IMG/VR virus record: IMGVR_UViG_3300020222_003397
Span: 1 to 20,975 of that record
From: a virus
Direction: 5' to 3' (one strand)
DNA length: 20,975 bases
Under the pieces are notes generated by a model that worked only from the letters and a program-made list of their open reading frames with translations, made no database searches and was not told where the DNA came from. Both the position numbers and the translations under genes were made by a program. This document shows positions 2,543 to 20,975 of the stretch, one piece after another (the stretch's first letter is position 1; every line of letters starts with the position of its first letter).

Positions 2543-3231
2543 GCCGGTGTCCCTAATATGTTGTATTGAATCTTGCCGGCTTTGATATCTACACTCTGTG
2601 GCTCTGGGAATAAATACCCGGACTTGACTGCACATACATAATACGTGCCCAATTTCAGCAACAGCAGATACATCCCGTCTTTGTCCGCCATATCGCCAAT
2701 CGTATATCCGCCACCCGTGGCTGTTACGCCCACTTCCGTGATCGGCTCTCCACCTTCATTCCGCACATAACCCCATAGTATCCCGCTTGGCTCCGCCGCC
2801 AATACGCTCAACGCCGCTCCCGTCACTTCGCTGCTGATCTCGCGTTTGCCAATCACCTTGACAGTAATCGTGTTCCCGCTTTCTGCCAACTTCACCACGT
2901 TCACCTGAATCCCCCAGGCGCATACGACCATATCAGTATTCTCCGGATCCACCAGCATCACGTCCACCCGCTTGTTGTTAAACGCCGCCCGCAGATAATC
3001 CCATTCCTCCTTGCTCACCCGCAACGTCCCAACCTCGGTCTCCACTACCTCCGTCTCCGTCAGCCCTTGACCCGTGGACAGCATCTTCACCACGCCTTGT
3101 ACCAGCGTGATCCGCGCCACTTCATCCGGCAGTTCCAGTTGATCCCATTCCGCCAGCACATCAGTCGCCAAATCAACCTCCGCCAGTGGCGTCCCTGCCA
3201 ACCTGACAAATACCTCATAAAACCTTCTCAT
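2539..3231 (-). CDS. Tail-tube-like virion protein with C-terminal carboxypeptidase-regulatory/Ig-like domain
   Basis: A 230-residue protein in two parts. Residues 1-135 align by eye with the whole of the protein encoded at 3884-3414: both open with an 'F..xxxR.A.TP' pattern and share a 'LR.A..N.kVD.m.vD.e..d.v..aW' core. The two are probably paralogues and, from their place after the capsid gene, candidate tail-tube or neck proteins. Residues 151-228 form an added beta-rich domain, with 'GYVRNEGGEPITEVGVTATG' followed by 'DKDGMYLLLLKLGTYYVCAV', the pattern of carboxypeptidase-regulatory-like folds. Such domains decorate phage virions and may bind surfaces. The ATG at 3231 follows AGGAG. It overlaps the lysin gene by four bases. 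Confidence 0.65.
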   Translation of the reverse strand: MRRFYEVFVRLAGTPLAEVDLATDVLAEWDQLELPDEVARITLVQGVVKMLSTGQGLTETEVVETEVGTLRVSKEEWDYLRAAFNNKRVDVMLVDPENTDMVVCAWGIQVNVVKLAESGNTITVKVIGKREISSEVTGAALSVLAAEPSGILWGYVRNEGGEPITEVGVTATGGGYTIGDMADKDGMYLLLLKLGTYYVCAVKSGYLFPEPQSVDIKAGKIQYNILGTPA

Positions 3232-6215: not shown

Positions 6216-6375
6216 TGCTCACCTCTCGTCTCAATTATACTCACCTTATTTATCCCTTCCCGATTTATTGTCATTTTGCACCACCACCATCGTAGGGGCG
6301 CTTTCCCTCAGCGCCCCAGCCGCCATTCTCAAATCTCAATTTCATTCCGTGCCTCTCCGTGCCTTCCGTGGTAAT
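6216..6375 (-). repeat. Intergenic repeat cluster (three blocks)
   Basis: A 160-base gap. On the plus strand, 6268-6291 has a TTGTCATTTTGCACC block also present near 12658. Positions 6292-6320 hold the GC hairpin (GGGGCGCT at 6295-6302 with AGCGCCCC at 6310-6317). Positions 6321-6375 hold the CATTCTCAA and TTCCGTG…CCGTGGT blocks. A TATAAT-like hexamer lies at 6239-6234 but has no matching -35. No gene is seen. Confidence 0.75.
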
Positions 6376-10025: not shown

Positions 10026-12605
10026 TCACACCCCATATTCCTGGAATCCACGACGTCCTTGTCCCATGTATTCGCTCACCGGATATTCCACCACCATGTT
10101 CGCCTTGCCCTCTGTGACGCTCATAACCCCTATTTTTTGCCCCTTCCTCCGCAGGTAGTAGGTTACACCCTTCCCCTGCCAGATCTCGCTCGCAGAACGC
10201 AACATTTCCACCGCCTGCCGTCCCTTGTCAGCCCGCCGCTTATCCCGATCCACTAATACCGGATAATTCAGCACGTCCTTCACCACCTCAACCTTACCAT
10301 CCAATTCTCCATTCTTTTCGCGCTTTTCCGTGCCTTCCGTGTTTTCCGTGGCTAATCCTACATCTGCGCAAACCGCGTTTTTATCCGCGCCATCTGCGGG
10401 AACCTCTCCTTCCCCCCGGTCCGCATATCGCTCATAATCCGCTTCCGCTCCACCCGGGATCTTGCCATTTTTCCCCACGTTCCCACGAAACGACGCATCA
10501 TGCTCCACGCCCGGATCTTCTCGCGTCAGCCCCGGATCTTTCTCCCCTTCCCCTTCGGTCAGTTGCTCCACGTCACAGCGGCAATTCCAGCCATTAGGCG
10601 GGTAATTCATATCCCAGAAAGGATCATCCACTGCCCGCACGATCCCGTCCAGCAACGCATGCTCTGCCCGCACCAGCTCATCCCGCATCGTCACATACTT
10701 CAGATATGGGAATAGCGCCTTGTCCGCCATCCACTGCTGCCACCGCCCGCACTGCGCCGCCGTTGTCCGTGCATTGTCAAATTCAGTCCGCAGATGATAC
10801 GGATTTGCCGAAGCATAGCCCGCCAGTTCCGCCCGCTCGATAAAGTCCGCAAAGCTCCCGCCGGCTGCCACTGCCGCTACCGCTTCCGCCTTCAGCGCTT
10901 CCACCGCTGTCCGTGTCCGCACCCCGCTGATGATCATCGCCTGGTTCCGCAACGCCGCAATCGTCCGCACGTTCTCCGCATCCCACTCGAATTCTATCGA
11001 CGGTAAGCCCCGGTTGGCGGTCTTATTACCCCGCTTCCGGTTTGCCACATACTCCAGCACCGCCGCTCTGCCCAGCTCCTGACCATACTCCGCAATGAAC
11101 CCCCTGGGAATATACGCCTCCAGATCCTCCAGCTCCGGCAATGCCCGGATCTCCATCTGCAGTTGTGCCAAACTTCTGTCCATTCCACCCACGCCCGCAT
11201 TTGCCTCCGTAGAGCAGGATGCCAATCCTACTGCCTGGGATGCCGAACTCCGATTCGGCACTGCTCTGTCACCATCCGTAGGGGCGTTTTCCCTCAGCGC
11301 CCCAGCCTCCATTCTCAATTCCTTATCCGCTCCATCCGCTTTTTCTGTCCGATCCGTTTTGCTTTTCTTTTCATCTGCGCTATCCGCGTTTTTATCCGCG
11401 TCAATCTGCGTGAACCTTTCCACCACCACCTGACCCTCCCCCGGTCGATCCACTCCATACGTTGCGTAAAAATGATCCACCGCCACCGGCACGCCCAACC
11501 GCACCAGTTTCTCATCGATCATGATCCGTCTCTCCAGATCCACCGGCTTCGGCGCTTCAAACCACACCCTCACCCCGCCACCGCCAAAGTTGATCCGATC
11601 GACCCGGTCCAATATCTCGTTCACAAACACACGTAGATCTGCCAGATCCGCGTTCAGTATGTCTTCCTTCACCTCCGCCTGCACCTCGCCCAGCGTCTGC
11701 GTCCCATACTTAGCAGCTTCCGTCGTCATCGTCTGACCCAGGATCACCTTCGTCACCCGGCTGCTCACAAATTCACACAGCACCATATACAGATCCCGGC
11801 TCTCGCTCTTCCCCGTAAAGTCCTTGAAGTCGATCTCCGTGTTCTTGCTCACCACCGCCGCCTGATCCGTGCCCAGCGCCGTCACCGCCTGCTTCAGCCA
11901 TGCGATCTCCTGCGCCGTTGCTGTCGGCTCATACTTGCCCACCCGCTGCGGTTTACCGTATGTCTCCGTAAATTGCGCCCAGTTATTGATCGCAAAACAA
12001 TAAAAAACATAATACTTCAGGATACTGTGCAACTTCGGACGGCGATAAAGATAACGCACAAACCGCATCTCTTCCAGCTCATACGGCTTGTCCTTGTGAT
12101 ACATCACGATCTCATTATCCACCTTCCGCAGATCCAGCCCGTGATACTCCCGCAACCCTGCCGGCACATACTTGCCCTCTTCCAACGCCCACAATATCTG
12201 TACAAAATGCCAGCCATACAACTTCTGCTCCAAAAATACATCGATCCAACCCGGCAGATAACGCTCCAGCAGCCCGTCATAATACTCCTGCTTCGGCTTA
12301 GGTAATGTCTCGCCAAAACTCCAGAGCGCCCGCTTGATCGCCTCTTTGCGCACATCCACCAGATACTGCAAATTGTCGTCCGCATCGATGAATAAGTCAA
12401 ACAACTCACTCAACTCCTTATACTTGCCCTCTTCACGGTACTCCCGCAACGCACTGATAATCTCTGCTGGCGTGATCCGCTCCAATACCGTCGCCCACGC
12501 ATACCGCGGCAACACCATATCCTTCATTACCGCCGATCTGCGCGCCTCTGCCAGCGCTTCCGCGCTTACGCCCATTGCCCTCGTCTTCCTAAACTTCCAA
12601 TTCAT
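10026..12605 (-). CDS. Portal (Mu gp29/DUF935) fused to Mu F-like head morphogenesis domain
   Basis: An 859-residue fusion. Residues 1-397 match the DUF935 portal family: 'EIISALREYREEGKYKEL', 'FIDADDNLQYLVDVRKEAI', 'GWHFVQILWALEEGKY', a 'TVTALGTDQAAVVS'-like region and 'ILGQTMTTEAAKYGTQ' (289-304). Residues about 545-680 match Mu F/SPP1 gp7-type minor head proteins, with 'LRTEFDNARTTAAQCGRWQQ' (605-624) and the closing 'HALLDG…PPNGWNCRC' (649-677). Portal and F are separate genes in Mu. The joint (398-478) is repeat-derived sequence, as is 733-770. The C-terminal 90 residues form a further small domain. The ATG at 12605 follows GCGAGG. It opens the late gene block after a terminator. Confidence 0.88.
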   Translation of the reverse strand: MNWKFRKTRAMGVSAEALAEARRSAVMKDMVLPRYAWATVLERITPAEIISALREYREEGKYKELSELFDLFIDADDNLQYLVDVRKEAIKRALWSFGETLPKPKQEYYDGLLERYLPGWIDVFLEQKLYGWHFVQILWALEEGKYVPAGLREYHGLDLRKVDNEIVMYHKDKPYELEEMRFVRYLYRRPKLHSILKYYVFYCFAINNWAQFTETYGKPQRVGKYEPTATAQEIAWLKQAVTALGTDQAAVVSKNTEIDFKDFTGKSESRDLYMVLCEFVSSRVTKVILGQTMTTEAAKYGTQTLGEVQAEVKEDILNADLADLRVFVNEILDRVDRINFGGGGVRVWFEAPKPVDLERRIMIDEKLVRLGVPVAVDHFYATYGVDRPGEGQVVVERFTQIDADKNADSADEKKSKTDRTEKADGADKELRMEAGALRENAPTDGDRAVPNRSSASQAVGLASCSTEANAGVGGMDRSLAQLQMEIRALPELEDLEAYIPRGFIAEYGQELGRAAVLEYVANRKRGNKTANRGLPSIEFEWDAENVRTIAALRNQAMIISGVRTRTAVEALKAEAVAAVAAGGSFADFIERAELAGYASANPYHLRTEFDNARTTAAQCGRWQQWMADKALFPYLKYVTMRDELVRAEHALLDGIVRAVDDPFWDMNYPPNGWNCRCDVEQLTEGEGEKDPGLTREDPGVEHDASFRGNVGKNGKIPGGAEADYERYADRGEGEVPADGADKNAVCADVGLATENTEGTEKREKNGELDGKVEVVKDVLNYPVLVDRDKRRADKGRQAVEMLRSASEIWQGKGVTYYLRRKGQKIGVMSVTEGKANMVVEYPVSEYMGQGRRGFQEYGV
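10316..10405 (-). repeat. Repeat-derived insert in the portal-F C-terminal region
   Basis: Inside the portal-F gene, 10322-10358 carries the CCGTGCCTTCCGTGTTTTCCG repeat family and 10361-10405 the CATCTGCG…GCGGGAACC family. They are read in frame as 'EVPADGADKNAVCADVG' and 'LATENTEGTEKREKNG' (residues 733-766). The reading frame stays open through both blocks. Confidence 0.7.
11200..11420 (-). repeat. Repeat-derived linker joining portal and F domains
   Basis: This stretch encodes residues about 398-470 of the fusion. From the plus-strand left it holds a CAGGATGCCAATCCTACTGC block with a CCGAA…TTCGG palindrome (11213-11262), the GC hairpin (11278-11306), an ATTCTCAATTC block, and a CATCTGCG…CGTGAACC block (11376-11417). 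It is translated as 'FTQIDADKNADSADEKKSK', 'GADKELRMEAGALRENAPTD' and 'VGLASCSTEANAGVGG'. It lies exactly between the two conserved domains. Confidence 0.7.
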
Positions 12606-17393: not shown

Positions 17394-20246
17394 TTATCTT
17401 AAGCCCATTCGGCGTAATTCTTCGATTACTTCTTTGCTTAACTTCACCTTCGCTACTCCACTCTCCGCTTCTGCGCCTACTCCCGCACCGGCGCTATCCG
17501 GACCAGGGATCAACCGCTGTTCCTGGATCAGTGACGCCTTCGTCTCCGGCAATGCCAGCACCTCGTCCAACGCACTACCGATCCGCTTCTGCGTCTCCGC
17601 TACCGCCTGCCGTGCGTCCCGCTCCACTCCCTTGATCTGCTTCAGCTCCGCCACCAACTCCCGCACCGTCTGCGGATCATCACTCAGCCGCACCAACGGA
17701 TGCTGCAGCTTCCGCGCCCCCGCCTGACAGATAAACCGGTCATTCTCGTCATATACCAATACGCTCCGCACGTCCCAATAGTCCCAACGCACCCGTACAT
17801 CACTCTTCACATGATGCACCAACGCCACGTCCCAATAGATCACGCCGTTCACTCGGATCCCCTGGTTCGTTACCCGCTTTTGATCTATCGCTAACATCAG
17901 ATAATTCAATTGATCAGCACTGATCCGCCTGCTCTCATCGATCCGCTCGCTGCCCTCGATAAACACTTCCAGCGGCGTCCGTCCCCCCAAGCCCCGGTGC
18001 TCCCGCTTGCCATACCGCTCCACCGCCCAGTGCTCAAAGATCTGCTTGAATTGCTCCACCGTCACCGCCTGATGCGGAAACCGCTGCTGCATATACTTCT
18101 CATTACGCAGCATCGTCGCCGGCTTATCCGCCGGACTCGACCCCGTCCAACCCGTCATGAACCGCTCCACCTCTTCCTGTAAACTCTGCCACCACCGCTC
18201 GATATGCTTCGCCTTCGCATTATACGGCATGCTGTTGATCACCTTGACCCCCAACCGCCCATAAACCCCCTGCATCGTCATATCTATATCCTCTGCGCTC
18301 ACATCGGCTCCGCCGATCCGTTGCATAAGTTCCATTTGTCCGTCCGTAGGGGCGCTTTCCCTCAGCGCCCCAGCCGCCATTCTCAATTCTTTTCCGTGCC
18401 TCTCCGTGCCTTCCCTGGTTAATCCCTTCCGTCCCTTTCCGCTGTTCTCCCCCGTAAAATACTTGCTCACATACGCCTTGGCATTATCGATATACACCGC
18501 CAACGGCACATAACCCGTCCACAACGCCGCATTCCGGAAAGCGATCTGGATCCCCTCCGTATTCTCCGTGATATTGATACTCGCACCCACCGGCATCCGG
18601 CTCCGGCAATCGAACCACACGATTATCTCGTGCTTCCGCGCCTTCCCGTCCCGCGGATCGATGATCATCACCTCGAGCGTATGACCGTCACTCATCCAGG
18701 CATCGCCAACTTCCACCAGGTCCCAGTCCCGGATGATCGTCTTGTTGATCGTCTCCTGGAATTGCTTCACTCCGCCCCTTGCCAGCGTCCACTGCGCCAG
18801 ATGCTCCTTCCGCCAGTCCTCGCACCACCGCACCGCCGTTTTAACGCTATAGCCCATCTCACGCCGGTGGATCCGGTACCAGTCCGCAATCACGTTCACC
18901 GCCGTCGTTACCCGCACCCGGTTCGGATGCAGCAAGAGCGCTAATAGTTTATTCTGATCATCCACCGGGATCTTACGCCCGCCACTACCCTTCTCATAAC
19001 CCGGCACCAACGCCGCAGCACCATCATCCTGATACTGCTTCACCCACCGGTAAACCGTCCGCACCGCCAACTGACCCGTCACCCGCAGCGTCCCCCCGCT
19101 GATCATTCCCAAATTATACAATTCCACCCACTTCCGCAATTCCGCCCCCTTCAAACCAGACACCTCGCTCACCACCGCTACCCGCGCCTCCACCATAGCC
19201 CGGTACCGCTCCGGCACCTCCGCCCGACGCGGACGCAGATCCAAGCCCCGCTCCTCCAACGTAGGGGCGCTTTCCCTCAGCGCCCCTTCTCCATCTCCAT
19301 CTATCCCCACCGGATTCGAACCGGCTTTCTCCGTCTCTCCGTCATTCCAGCACTCGTTACTCCCGTCATTCCAGCGCAGGCTGGTATCCAGTTCTTTTTT
19401 AGTGGAAGAGTCATCCTGACTGAATTCATTCAGCCTGTCTGGCGAGATGGCCAGATGGCCAGATGGTGAGGTGGGGGCTTGGTGTGGCAAGTTGCACTTG
19501 CCTCCAGCAGCATCGCTGCTATCGGAGGCGCATGGGTCTGGTACACCAATCCCCAGATTGGCAGCTTTGGCAGCCCTCGACCGTAATAATGGAGTATCCA
19601 CCAAGGATTCATATGTCTTCTCCCATCCATTGGGACGGCCAGTGGCGGCAATCATCGCTTTTTTTGCATGATCCGCCAAAACATGACACATTTGGCCACT
19701 ATTGCATCGACTATTGCATATCCGGCAGCATCCATCACAATATGGATGTGCAAATTTGCACACACGGCACAGATCGGTGGTGGGGAATGGTTCGCATGGT
19801 CCTGGTTCCGCACCCTGGACTCCACCTCCCCCCCTCCTGCCATGACCCGGTGGCACAACATCTACCTGCTTGTCATGCTTGTCATCGGTTATCAGTGGCG
19901 GGTTGTCATGGTTGTCATGGTTGTCATGGTTGTCATGGTTGTCATGGTTGTCATGGTTGTCATGGTTGTCATGGTTGTCATGGTTGTCATGGTTGTCATT
20001 GTTGTCATGGTTGTCATGGTTGTCATGGTTGTCATGGTTGTCATGGCATCTGATCATCCAGGACATTCTACCTGGTATGGTTGGATGAGATTCTTCCCTC
20101 ACCTCCAACTTACCGCTCTTGATCGCCTTCAATACCGCCTGCCGGCTCTTACCGCTCCGTTCCGCATACGCCTTCACACTCAACCAATCTGCGTTATCTG
20201 CGCATCGATCTGCGCTCTTCTGCGGGAACCTTTCATCCCTTGCCAT
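17394..20246 (-). CDS. A: MuA-type DDE transposase, enlarged by repeat inserts
   Basis: A 950-residue transposase (Mu A is 663) that should cut and join phage ends for integration and replicative transposition. Order: winged helix-like 'WLSVKAYAERSGKSRQAVLK' (21-40); sixteen His/Asn-Asp-Asn units (68-115); a nine-cysteine cluster (151-187); repeat-derived stretch (about 235-330); helix-turn-helix (386-405); DDE domain with Asp520 ('MSDGHTLEV'), Asp587 ('AVYIDNAKAYVSK') and Glu683 ('AKAKHIERWW'); a beta-barrel region; basic C-terminus ('KEVIEELRRMGLR') that in Mu contacts B and has nuclease-assisting activity. A 45-residue repeat insert separates Asp587 and Glu683. The ATG at 20246 has AGGAG seven bases upstream. 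All catalytic residues remain. Confidence 0.93.
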   Translation of the reverse strand: MARDERFPQKSADRCADNADWLSVKAYAERSGKSRQAVLKAIKSGKLEVREESHPTIPGRMSWMIRCHDNHDNHDNHDNHDNNDNHDNHDNHDNHDNHDNHDNHDNHDNHDNHDNPPLITDDKHDKQVDVVPPGHGRRGGGGVQGAEPGPCEPFPTTDLCRVCKFAHPYCDGCCRICNSRCNSGQMCHVLADHAKKAMIAATGRPNGWEKTYESLVDTPLLRSRAAKAANLGIGVPDPCASDSSDAAGGKCNLPHQAPTSPSGHLAISPDRLNEFSQDDSSTKKELDTSLRWNDGSNECWNDGETEKAGSNPVGIDGDGEGALRESAPTLEERGLDLRPRRAEVPERYRAMVEARVAVVSEVSGLKGAELRKWVELYNLGMISGGTLRVTGQLAVRTVYRWVKQYQDDGAAALVPGYEKGSGGRKIPVDDQNKLLALLLHPNRVRVTTAVNVIADWYRIHRREMGYSVKTAVRWCEDWRKEHLAQWTLARGGVKQFQETINKTIIRDWDLVEVGDAWMSDGHTLEVMIIDPRDGKARKHEIIVWFDCRSRMPVGASINITENTEGIQIAFRNAALWTGYVPLAVYIDNAKAYVSKYFTGENSGKGRKGLTREGTERHGKELRMAAGALRESAPTDGQMELMQRIGGADVSAEDIDMTMQGVYGRLGVKVINSMPYNAKAKHIERWWQSLQEEVERFMTGWTGSSPADKPATMLRNEKYMQQRFPHQAVTVEQFKQIFEHWAVERYGKREHRGLGGRTPLEVFIEGSERIDESRRISADQLNYLMLAIDQKRVTNQGIRVNGVIYWDVALVHHVKSDVRVRWDYWDVRSVLVYDENDRFICQAGARKLQHPLVRLSDDPQTVRELVAELKQIKGVERDARQAVAETQKRIGSALDEVLALPETKASLIQEQRLIPGPDSAGAGVGAEAESGVAKVKLSKEVIEELRRMGLR
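18310..18446 (-). repeat. Repeat insert within the transposase catalytic domain
   Basis: Plus-strand order: GTTGCATAAGTTCCATTTG (18320), the GC hairpin (18346-18374), CCGCCATTCTCAATTC, and CCGTGCCTCTCCGTGCCTTC…GGTTAA (18391-18423). Translated as 'GLTREGTERHGKELRMAAG' followed by 'ALRESAPTDGQMELMQRI' (residues about 608-645). It is a full composite of blocks otherwise seen in intergenic gaps. Confidence 0.8.
19261..19545 (-). repeat. Large repeat-derived segment in the transposase N-terminal half
   Basis: On the plus strand: GC hairpin (19261-19286), two CATTCCAGC-type 'WIPAYAGMT' repeats (19341-19399), a CCAGATGGCCAGATGG short tandem (19450-19466) and a GGCAAGTTGCACTTGCC palindrome (19486-19502). 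Together they encode residues about 235-329, with 'KCNLPHQ', 'KKELDTSLRWNDGSNECWND' and 'GALRESAPT'. The segment lies between the cysteine cluster and the conserved transposase core. Confidence 0.7.
19902..20045 (-). repeat. Sixteen-unit tandem 9-bp repeat encoding (HDN)n
   Basis: Sixteen head-to-tail GTTGTCATG units (plus strand), identical except the eleventh (19992-20000), where the last base is T. Read on the coding strand each gives His-Asp-Asn, the variant giving Asn-Asp-Asn (residues 68-115). The unit length keeps the frame open whatever the copy number. Confidence 0.95.
20188..20231 (-). repeat. CATCTGCG-type repeat at the transposase N-terminus
   Basis: CAATCTGCGTTATCTGCGC…TTCTGCGGGAACC (plus strand) encodes transposase residues 6-20 ('RFPQKSADRCADNAD'). 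The winged helix begins right after. The family recurs at 9974, 10361, 11376, 13048 and 20727 in the same orientation. Confidence 0.65.
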
Positions 20247-20271
20247 ACATATTCTCCTTTACCGCCCCACA

Positions 20272-20307
20272 CAAAAAATGGACGCCAGATTCGCGGGTCT
20301 GGCGTCC
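20272..20307 (-). terminator. Intrinsic terminator just upstream of the transposase
   Basis: On the minus strand a perfect ten-pair stem (GGACGCCAGA with TCTGGCGTCC, arms 20307-20298 and 20289-20280) closes an eight-base loop and is followed by CATTTTTTGTG. It ends only 26 bases before the transposase ATG. Transcripts from upstream must pass it to express the transposase, unless a promoter lies inside this short gap. Confidence 0.8.
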
Positions 20308-20329
20308 TCGTATGGCACGGTTCTTGTCA

Positions 20330-20395
20330 CAAAGATTAACGGGCACATCTCCACCCGAAGCGCAACCGGATGTCTCTTTGAAATACGCCCGTTAA
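20330..20395 (-). promoter_or_regulatory. Candidate pseudoknotted leader RNA
   Basis: On the minus strand, TTAACGGGC (20395-20387) pairs with GCCCGTTAA (20344-20336). ACATC (20373-20369) pairs with GATGT (20349-20345). CAAAGA (20380-20375), inside the first stem, pairs with TCTTTG (20335-20330) just outside it. The three 3' partners are contiguous, so 20 base pairs could stack end to end. A terminator follows 22 bases later. No known riboswitch or ribozyme class is recognised. Confidence 0.45.
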
Positions 20396-20509
20396 GCCCT
20401 GATCCGTTGGGGCGCTTTCCCTCAGCGCCCCAACCCCCATCAAATCTGATCTCCTACCTTCTTCTGCCCGCCCATTGCGATGCAATGTTCCCGCTTTACT
20501 TCGTCTCAT
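20336..20509 (-). CDS. Possible 57-residue leader peptide containing a repeat
   Basis: A 57-codon frame. Its ATG at 20509 overlaps the stop of the preceding gene by four bases (ATGA), with GGGAGG eight bases upstream, a good sign of coupled translation. The peptide begins MRRSKAGTLHRNG, contains 'GALRESAPTD' from the GC hairpin repeat in the same frame used in the transposase and portal-F proteins, and ends 'DIRLRFGWRCAR'. Its stop codon lies in the 3' arm of the long stem of the candidate pseudoknot, 28 bases before a terminator. It may be a regulatory leader peptide rather than a functional protein, or a chance frame. No homologous family is recognised. Confidence 0.35.
   Translation of the reverse strand: MRRSKAGTLHRNGRAEEGRRSDLMGVGALRESAPTDQGLTGVFQRDIRLRFGWRCAR
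20406..20434 (-). repeat. GC hairpin repeat, perfect copy
   Basis: GTTGGGGCGCT (20406-20416) and AGCGCCCCAAC (20424-20434) form an eleven-pair perfect stem with a seven-base loop. The other six copies share the loop and the inner pairs, but have a GTA/AGC outer end that pairs imperfectly. It is followed downstream on the coding strand by the candidate pseudoknot. Confidence 0.85.
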
Positions 20510-20718
20510 GAGATCACCCTCCCCAATCTCTTCAACCTTCTATACTCACCCCGGTCGATCCACCGCTCTATCTTAAAACACCTGGCACACACCACCGCAT
20601 GTCTGTAAGTGGTATGCTCATACCCGTTATGGAAACCTTGCTCTCTGCGATACACGCCCCACTTATGCCCCCGGATCGCACATATACTCTTCCGGAAGAT
20701 CCGCTTAATCTGCTTCAC
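20506..20718 (-). CDS. Small basic protein with possible zinc-binding Cys/His residues
   Basis: A roughly 70-residue, strongly basic protein upstream of the transposase leader. 'CAIRGHKW' near the N-terminus and 'VVCARC' in the middle give a Cys-His and Cys-x2-Cys arrangement, common in tiny phage proteins thought to bind zinc ('IGHkW…CxRC'). The start is uncertain. The frame opens at a TTG at 20739, inside the upstream gene and in repeat sequence; a GTG at 20718, close behind GGGGGTGTGAG, is used here. It occupies the place where Mu keeps its early regulator Ner, but shows no helix-turn-helix. Function unknown. Confidence 0.45.
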   Translation of the reverse strand: MKQIKRIFRKSICAIRGHKWGVYRREQGFHNGYEHTTYRHAVVCARCFKIERWIDRGEYRRLKRLGRVIS

Positions 20719-20975
20719 CTCACACCCCCATCTGCGCAATCCCCGCCTTGATCCCCGCCCATCTGCGTATTCAATAGATCTTCACTGGCTGCGACAACAA
20801 CCGTAAATCCTGATTTTGCGAGTTGCTTAATCATTACGTTTATATACTTACTATAGAACTCACTCATCTTCTCAGCGATTATAATTTCCGCTTTGTTGGG
20901 ATTCAGGGCTACATGCCCTGGTGTTATGTTGAGCGTATTGCCTTCAACTTCGATTTGATATGATATTCCCGTCAT
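20715..20975 (-). CDS. Unrecognised small protein at the window edge
   Basis: An 86-residue frame opening with an ATG exactly at the right edge, so the true start may lie outside. It has an early strand region ('ISYQIEVEGNTLNITPGHVA') and a helix pair ('MSEFYSKYINVMIKQLAKSG') ending 'FTVVVAASEDLLN'. The last 16 residues ('MGGDQGGDCADGGVR') are encoded by a CATCTGCG-type repeat (20727-20770) and were probably added when the repeat arrived. No family is recognised. It is probably the first visible gene of the early operon. Confidence 0.45.
   Translation of the reverse strand: MTGISYQIEVEGNTLNITPGHVALNPNKAEIIIAEKMSEFYSKYINVMIKQLAKSGFTVVVAASEDLLNTQMGGDQGGDCADGGVR
20727..20770 (-). repeat. CATCTGCG-type repeat at a gene end
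   Basis: CCCCCATCTGCGCAATCCCC…CCATCTGCGTATTC (plus strand) belongs to the family seen at five other places. It supplies the C-terminal residues of the gene at 20975 and covers the uncertain start of the next one. Confidence 0.55.

Follow-up and report, generated by a model that had tools for sequence, protein, structure and literature searches.

A conserved RNA element before the transposase gene of Mu-like phages of Cloacimonadota, probably a leaky terminator combined with a translational switch

A conserved RNA element in the transposase leader

The segment 20241-20321 (minus strand) of a 20,975-base virus contig, the whole of which was analysed and is called the window, is best explained as a conserved element of the transposase mRNA in Mu-like phages of Cloacimonadota. 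It would lie in the 5' leader and probably combine a leaky terminator with a translational switch (probability about 0.6). Positions used in the following sections are listed here.

17394-20246, minus strand: Mu-type transposase, the gene presumed to be regulated (Pfam Mu-transpos_C; PHROG 310).
20241-20249, minus strand: strand S (UGUAUGGCA), which contains the start codon (20246-20244) and is complementary to strand A.
20254-20260, minus strand: Shine-Dalgarno sequence AAAGGAG of the transposase (sequence).
20261-20272, minus strand: strand D (GUGUGGGGCGGU), the decoy and 3' strand of the outer stem (fold; pair counts).
20273-20279, minus strand: U-run AUUUUUU, bulged out on closure of the outer stem (sequence; fold).
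20280-20307, minus strand: ten-pair terminator-like hairpin with the conserved loop CCCGCGAA at 20297-20290 (terminator scan; covariation).
20310-20321, minus strand: strand A (ACCGUGCCAUAC), the 5' strand of the outer stem, pairing with D or S (fold; shuffles; swap test).
20336-20395, minus strand: element B, a 16-pair stem with a 7-nt 5' bulge AAAGAGA and a 7-pair inner stem (folds).
20336-20509, minus strand: 57-codon coupled frame, the leader peptide of a preliminary description of this DNA, with no sign of a regulatory role (ORF list).
20406-20434, minus strand: dispersed palindromic repeat of the host; it lies within the 57-codon frame and does not belong to the RNA element (repeat copies).

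The phage and its host

The minus strand of the window encodes the Mu-type transposase, a TniB-like ATPase, portal, terminase and head genes. The order of transposase A followed by ATPase B, together with Mu-like head genes, identifies a Mu-like transposable phage, and this assignment is based on Pfam Mu-transpos_C, PHROG 310 and 296, a portal with a fused minor head domain, and the terminase. The fused protein is a single 859-aa frame (10026-12605) in which the portal protein is joined to a Mu F-like minor head protein. In the transposase, a helix-turn-helix-like N-terminal domain is followed (19901-20050) by a 9-nt tandem repeat (GACAACCAT, Asp-Asn-His), which varies in length and recurs in the loci L008, L119, L159 and L162. 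L008 and L009, the nearest phages, end inside the transposase. The transposase reading frame of both runs through a tRNA-Glu(TTC), complete by ARAGORN (L008:655-730, L009:326-401), which lies in the linker of the protein, where the window has dispersed repeats.

Among the genome contigs searched, the dispersed repeat GTAGGGGCGCTTTCCCTCAGCGCCCC was found in one genome only, a Candidatus Cloacimonadota MAG with 63 matches, and transposases of the window kind are present in 39 of 125 Cloacimonadota genomes. Since the repeat occurs in this MAG and such transposases are common in the phylum, the host of the window phage is very probably a member of Cloacimonadota. The window genes are dense in host dispersed repeats of several families, many of which are read in frame within phage genes to give ALRESAPT, WIPACAGMT and other products; copies lie at 6281, 7263, 11267, 12674, 18335, 19250, 20395 and elsewhere.

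The terminator-like hairpin and its covariation

At the DNA level, the phage DNA collection gave no more than short matches to the dispersed repeat, all by chance, and a search of 125 Cloacimonadota genomes with the 144-nt core gave nothing significant. A transposase scan of the genome contigs found none. Loci with upstream DNA were reached via the transposase N-terminal domain (GKSRQAVLKAI), namely L119 and L120, the viral loci L159-L162, and L176-L182 from genomes.

The preliminary description had placed a terminator-bearing regulatory RNA before the transposase. The perfect 10-pair hairpin (20307-20280) and the AUUUUUU after it are present, as is the transposase ribosome site AAAGGAG downstream, and the G+C-rich stem with its six U has the form expected of an intrinsic terminator. 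The window shares with L162, L178 and L179 a hairpin of at least 10 pairs, the loop CNCGCGAA, a U-rich stretch and a closing outer stem, and in all four the hairpin stands directly before the transposase ribosome site. Over the 17 pairs of hairpin and outer stem in the alignment of these four sequences, 100% of scorable cells are paired, with both partners changed in 8 of the pairs. A model of the four (R2) searched in the 125 genomes found one new case, L191 (G008:C439), with E = 8e-10. Its surroundings are a phage early region that resembles the one in the window, in which a chain of coupled small frames accompanies a CI-like repressor and a Ner-like gene; the gene after the element is not recognisably the transposase. 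When the five sequences are compared, 7 of the 10 hairpin pairs have changes in both strands and no pair is broken, a covariation, G-U pairs included, which bears out the proposed regulatory RNA for this first hairpin type of five loci only, two of them in one genome. A second type with the loop GGAGUCGAYRCC occupies the same place in L160, L161, L177 and L181.

The loop CNCGCGAA is almost invariant and was found only before these phage genes. The element itself is not a dispersed repeat; a dispersed repeat away from transposases was one of the findings that the preliminary description had named as speaking against it. No cis partner for the loop was noticed; the loop is the best candidate site for a trans-acting factor. 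Rfam covariance models, those of known riboswitches included, gave no match above chance in the window and none in L159-L162 except one sub-threshold match, elsewhere in L161.

Several further candidates were set aside. An exact viral scan for TTAACGGGCGTATTTC gave six matches, all by chance, and chance also accounts for L183 and L184 (from the D-strand pattern) and L195 (from the A-plus-loop pattern). The sole new place for the type 2 pattern, L200, is a terminator between other genes. A decoy-like resemblance is seen in L159, where it is not significant, and in L213. No element is visible in L208, L214 and L215, and the upstream DNA of 36 other transposases holds no counterpart.

Two mutually exclusive partners of strand A

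The preliminary description had overlooked that the terminator is enclosed by an outer stem, ACCGUGCCAUAC/GUGUGGGGCGGU, and that ACCGUGCCAUAC is also complementary to the start-codon region. Strand A binds S as UGCCAUACG (20317-20309), and D and S are mutually exclusive partners of A. In the window, A:D amounts to -19.9 kcal/mol (p = 0.009 against shuffles) and A:S to -16.6 kcal/mol (p = 0.0025). The A/S pairings are as follows.

Window: TGCCATACG/TGTATGGCA, 9 pairs, one G-U.
L162: TGCCATACC/GGTATGGCA, 9 pairs.
L191: TCGCCATACC/GGTATGGCGA, 10 pairs.
L178: ATCCATGCCA/TGGCGTGGAT, 10 pairs, one G-U.
L179: ATCCACGTC/GGCGTGGAT, 9 pairs, one G-U.
Type 2: strand CUACAACUCC with the Shine-Dalgarno region GGAGAUGUAG, one mismatch.
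L177 (type 2): compensated pair CUGCAACUCC/GGAGAUGCAG.

The A:S complementarity is better than in shuffles at p <= 0.018 in 9 of 11 loci. The remaining two are L120 (p = 0.12), whose resemblance (UUAACG...CGCUAAUCUU) was not counted as proof, and L182 (p = 0.98), which does not fit. When strands were swapped between groups, own pairs had a mean of -17.6 kcal/mol against -9.8 with other groups, and 0 of 100,000 permutations were as good, although closely related loci are not independent and the A:S statistics overstate the evidence somewhat. A scan without a preset A reached p <= 0.05 in 8 of the 9 loci of the two main types (L162, L178, L179, L191, L160, L161, L177 and L181), with the window at p = 0.12 and not significant alone; the controls reached this level in 1 of 36 other transposases and 2 of 26 other window genes. 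The core of the evidence, as read from the sequences, is that both strands change between the groups formed by the window, L162 and L191, by L178 and L179, and by type 2.

The two folds expose or hide the start codon, with a predicted accessibility in the window of 0.96 as against 0.00, and they are conserved with covariation as is expected of a translational RNA switch. In most phages the two differ by no more than about 5 kcal/mol. The balance favours A:S in L178, L179, L160 and L177, whereas in the window it is one-sided, A:D being favoured by about 8 kcal/mol. Because the terminator hairpin is compatible with both folds and forms in each, the folds do not switch termination, and control would be exerted on translation once read-through has occurred.

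A plain intrinsic terminator would involve no switch: it would stop transcription of the host or of the upstream early genes from running on into the transposase, and the outer pairing would be incidental or would only stabilise the hairpin. Its position between co-directional coupled frames and the transposase is suitable, and the hairpin and U-run of the window make a good terminator. However, a terminator needs neither the conserved loop nor a strand that tracks changes at the start codon, and we consider this explanation unlikely. Weak U-runs in some relatives (L161, L179) speak against it as well and mean that termination is not certain throughout.

It is less probable still that A, D and S act at the DNA level, as inverted and direct repeats bound by a repressor or by the transposase N-terminal domain, whose helix-turn-helix-like character would suit such a role. 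D and S are indeed partial direct repeats, with 9 nt (GGCGTGGAT) in common in L179 and 8 nt (GGAGATGT) in L161, but they share merely 3-6 nt in most phages. The G-U pairs within A:D and A:S favour selection at the level of RNA rather than DNA, and the intervening hairpin also covaries with G-U pairs.

The combination of a leaky terminator and a translational switch, which we prefer, would work as follows. Transcription from the upstream early genes would meet the terminator-like hairpin, which would let only a fraction through to the transposase. In a read-through transcript, pairing of A with D would close the outer stem around the hairpin and leave the start codon free (ON), and pairing of A with S would bury the start codon (OFF). 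Since D is made before S, nascent RNA should form A:D first and begin in the ON state. The OFF state is predicted to be the more stable end state in several relatives, and translation is perhaps confined to fresh transcripts; alternatively, it may be set by a factor which reads the conserved loop. A tentative extension, possible but doubtful, is a family of phage RNA timers in which the mRNA is born ON through its decoy and then refolds to OFF or is held by a loop-reading factor of the phage, with CNCGCGAA, or GGAGUCGA in the second type, as the candidate loop. If this were true, only fresh transcripts close to the prophage would give rise to transposase.

The 57-codon frame and the bulged hairpin

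The region upstream of strand A had been described as an attenuator, in which termination depends either on the position of a ribosome in the 57-codon frame or on a ligand bound by the stem and pseudoknot. The frame is there (20336-20509), coupled through an ATGA overlap with the frame 20506-20739, and its TAA (20338-20336) forms the end of the 3' arm in the stem UUAACGGGC/GCCCGUUAA; together with the stable hairpin, these are the points in favour of attenuation. Relatives of the frame were sought, and none was found apart from weak matches around the dispersed repeat that it carries; no conserved leader peptide, as attenuation of this kind would have, was thus seen. The nine-pair stem exists, but only as the base of the 16-pair stem of element B. 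The six-pair pseudoknot CAAAGA/UCUUUG could not be upheld, as runs of at least 6 occur in 6.5% of shuffled flanks and it is not kept in relatives, where the longest such runs are 3 or 4 nt, or 5 nt in L120 (P = 0.39). The suggested antiterminator, ACGCC with GGCGU, consists of 5 pairs in competition with the 16-pair stem and is unsupported. With no Rfam match either, leader-peptide or ligand attenuation appears very improbable. Equally hard to credit is a small RNA that ends at the terminator, with a transposase start of its own further down: a folded RNA followed by a terminator would suit it, but the A:S relation would have no cis role, and a sigma-70 scan saw no promoter-like site nearby and none between A and S, although promoters of this phylum may differ.

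The region 20247-20520 folds better than shuffles (z = -6.3, 0 of 200), as does 20272-20400 (z = -3.6). The palindrome 20406-20434 has six further copies in the window and 63 matches in the Cloacimonadota MAG; being a host repeat, it accounts for a part of the folding strength of the whole region that is unrelated to the transposase. Element B resembles bulged hairpins at the same place in L177-L179 (bulge AAAAGGG or UAAAGGG). A model of these hairpins, built without the window, missed element B with filters on and found it weakly with filters off (E = 0.11, the best of the stretch). Because of this weak match, common descent is not claimed, and that element B is part of the regulatory RNA is probable but unproven.

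Comparison with known systems

Transposable phages are usually described as controlling their transposase by repressor, Ner and promoter. In the insertion sequences IS200, IS10 and IS50 the transposase is controlled at the RNA level via mRNA structure at the ribosome site, and IS200 has a terminator ahead of the transposase gene as well. The element described here is like all three in the former respect and like IS200 in the latter, but it differs in the type of element and in the host, and we know of no start-site decoy copy or conserved CNCGCGAA loop in them. In erm-type translational attenuators, exclusive pairing of segments sets access to the start site and depends on a leader peptide and a stalled ribosome. 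Mutually exclusive pairing would decide access in our element too, whereas no conserved leader peptide was found.

In the transposase mRNA of ISPpu9, a 5'-leader structure hides the ribosome site and an antisense RNA opens it; antisense control of IS10, IS30 and IS200 is named in the same paper (PMC8450116). Leader folding would hide the translation start of a transposase gene in both cases, but here, in a phage, the alternative partner is a decoy strand in cis instead of an antisense RNA, with the terminator-like hairpin in between. RNA control of transposase translation is therefore already known from insertion sequences such as ISPpu9, and the likeliest reading of our sequence comparison is that a cis decoy with a conserved loop makes a new variant of it. 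The Mu-like phage Fc02 has, like the window phage, a repressor opposite ner and an early operon with transposases A and B, and passages on that early region describe control by promoters and repressor and no RNA switch before transposase A (PMC9936078). Open papers yielded no literature on transposable phages of Cloacimonadota, and earlier studies of phage Mu may have escaped such a search. Conserved RNA control at the start of the transposase, with its decoy strand and loop, would place one more checkpoint, a post-transcriptional one, on the choice between silent prophage and replication, and the element gives an RNA marker for phages of Cloacimonadota.

Additional structures upstream of the transposase

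An inverted repeat GGGACGC...GCGTCCC followed by TTTTTGTCAAG lies upstream of the transposase in most relatives (L119:2598-2650, L120:1230-1300, L162 near 3000-3100, L160, L161, L180 and L181), with the variant GGGATAC...GTATCCC in L119 and L120. More folded RNAs with long covarying basal stems are present in L160 and L161, upstream of the type 2 hairpin, and in L162; they lie between the inverted repeat and the terminator-like hairpin, differ among phages and have no Rfam match. In L120 and L162 the inverted repeat fronts a gene on the opposite strand and overlaps its ribosome site.
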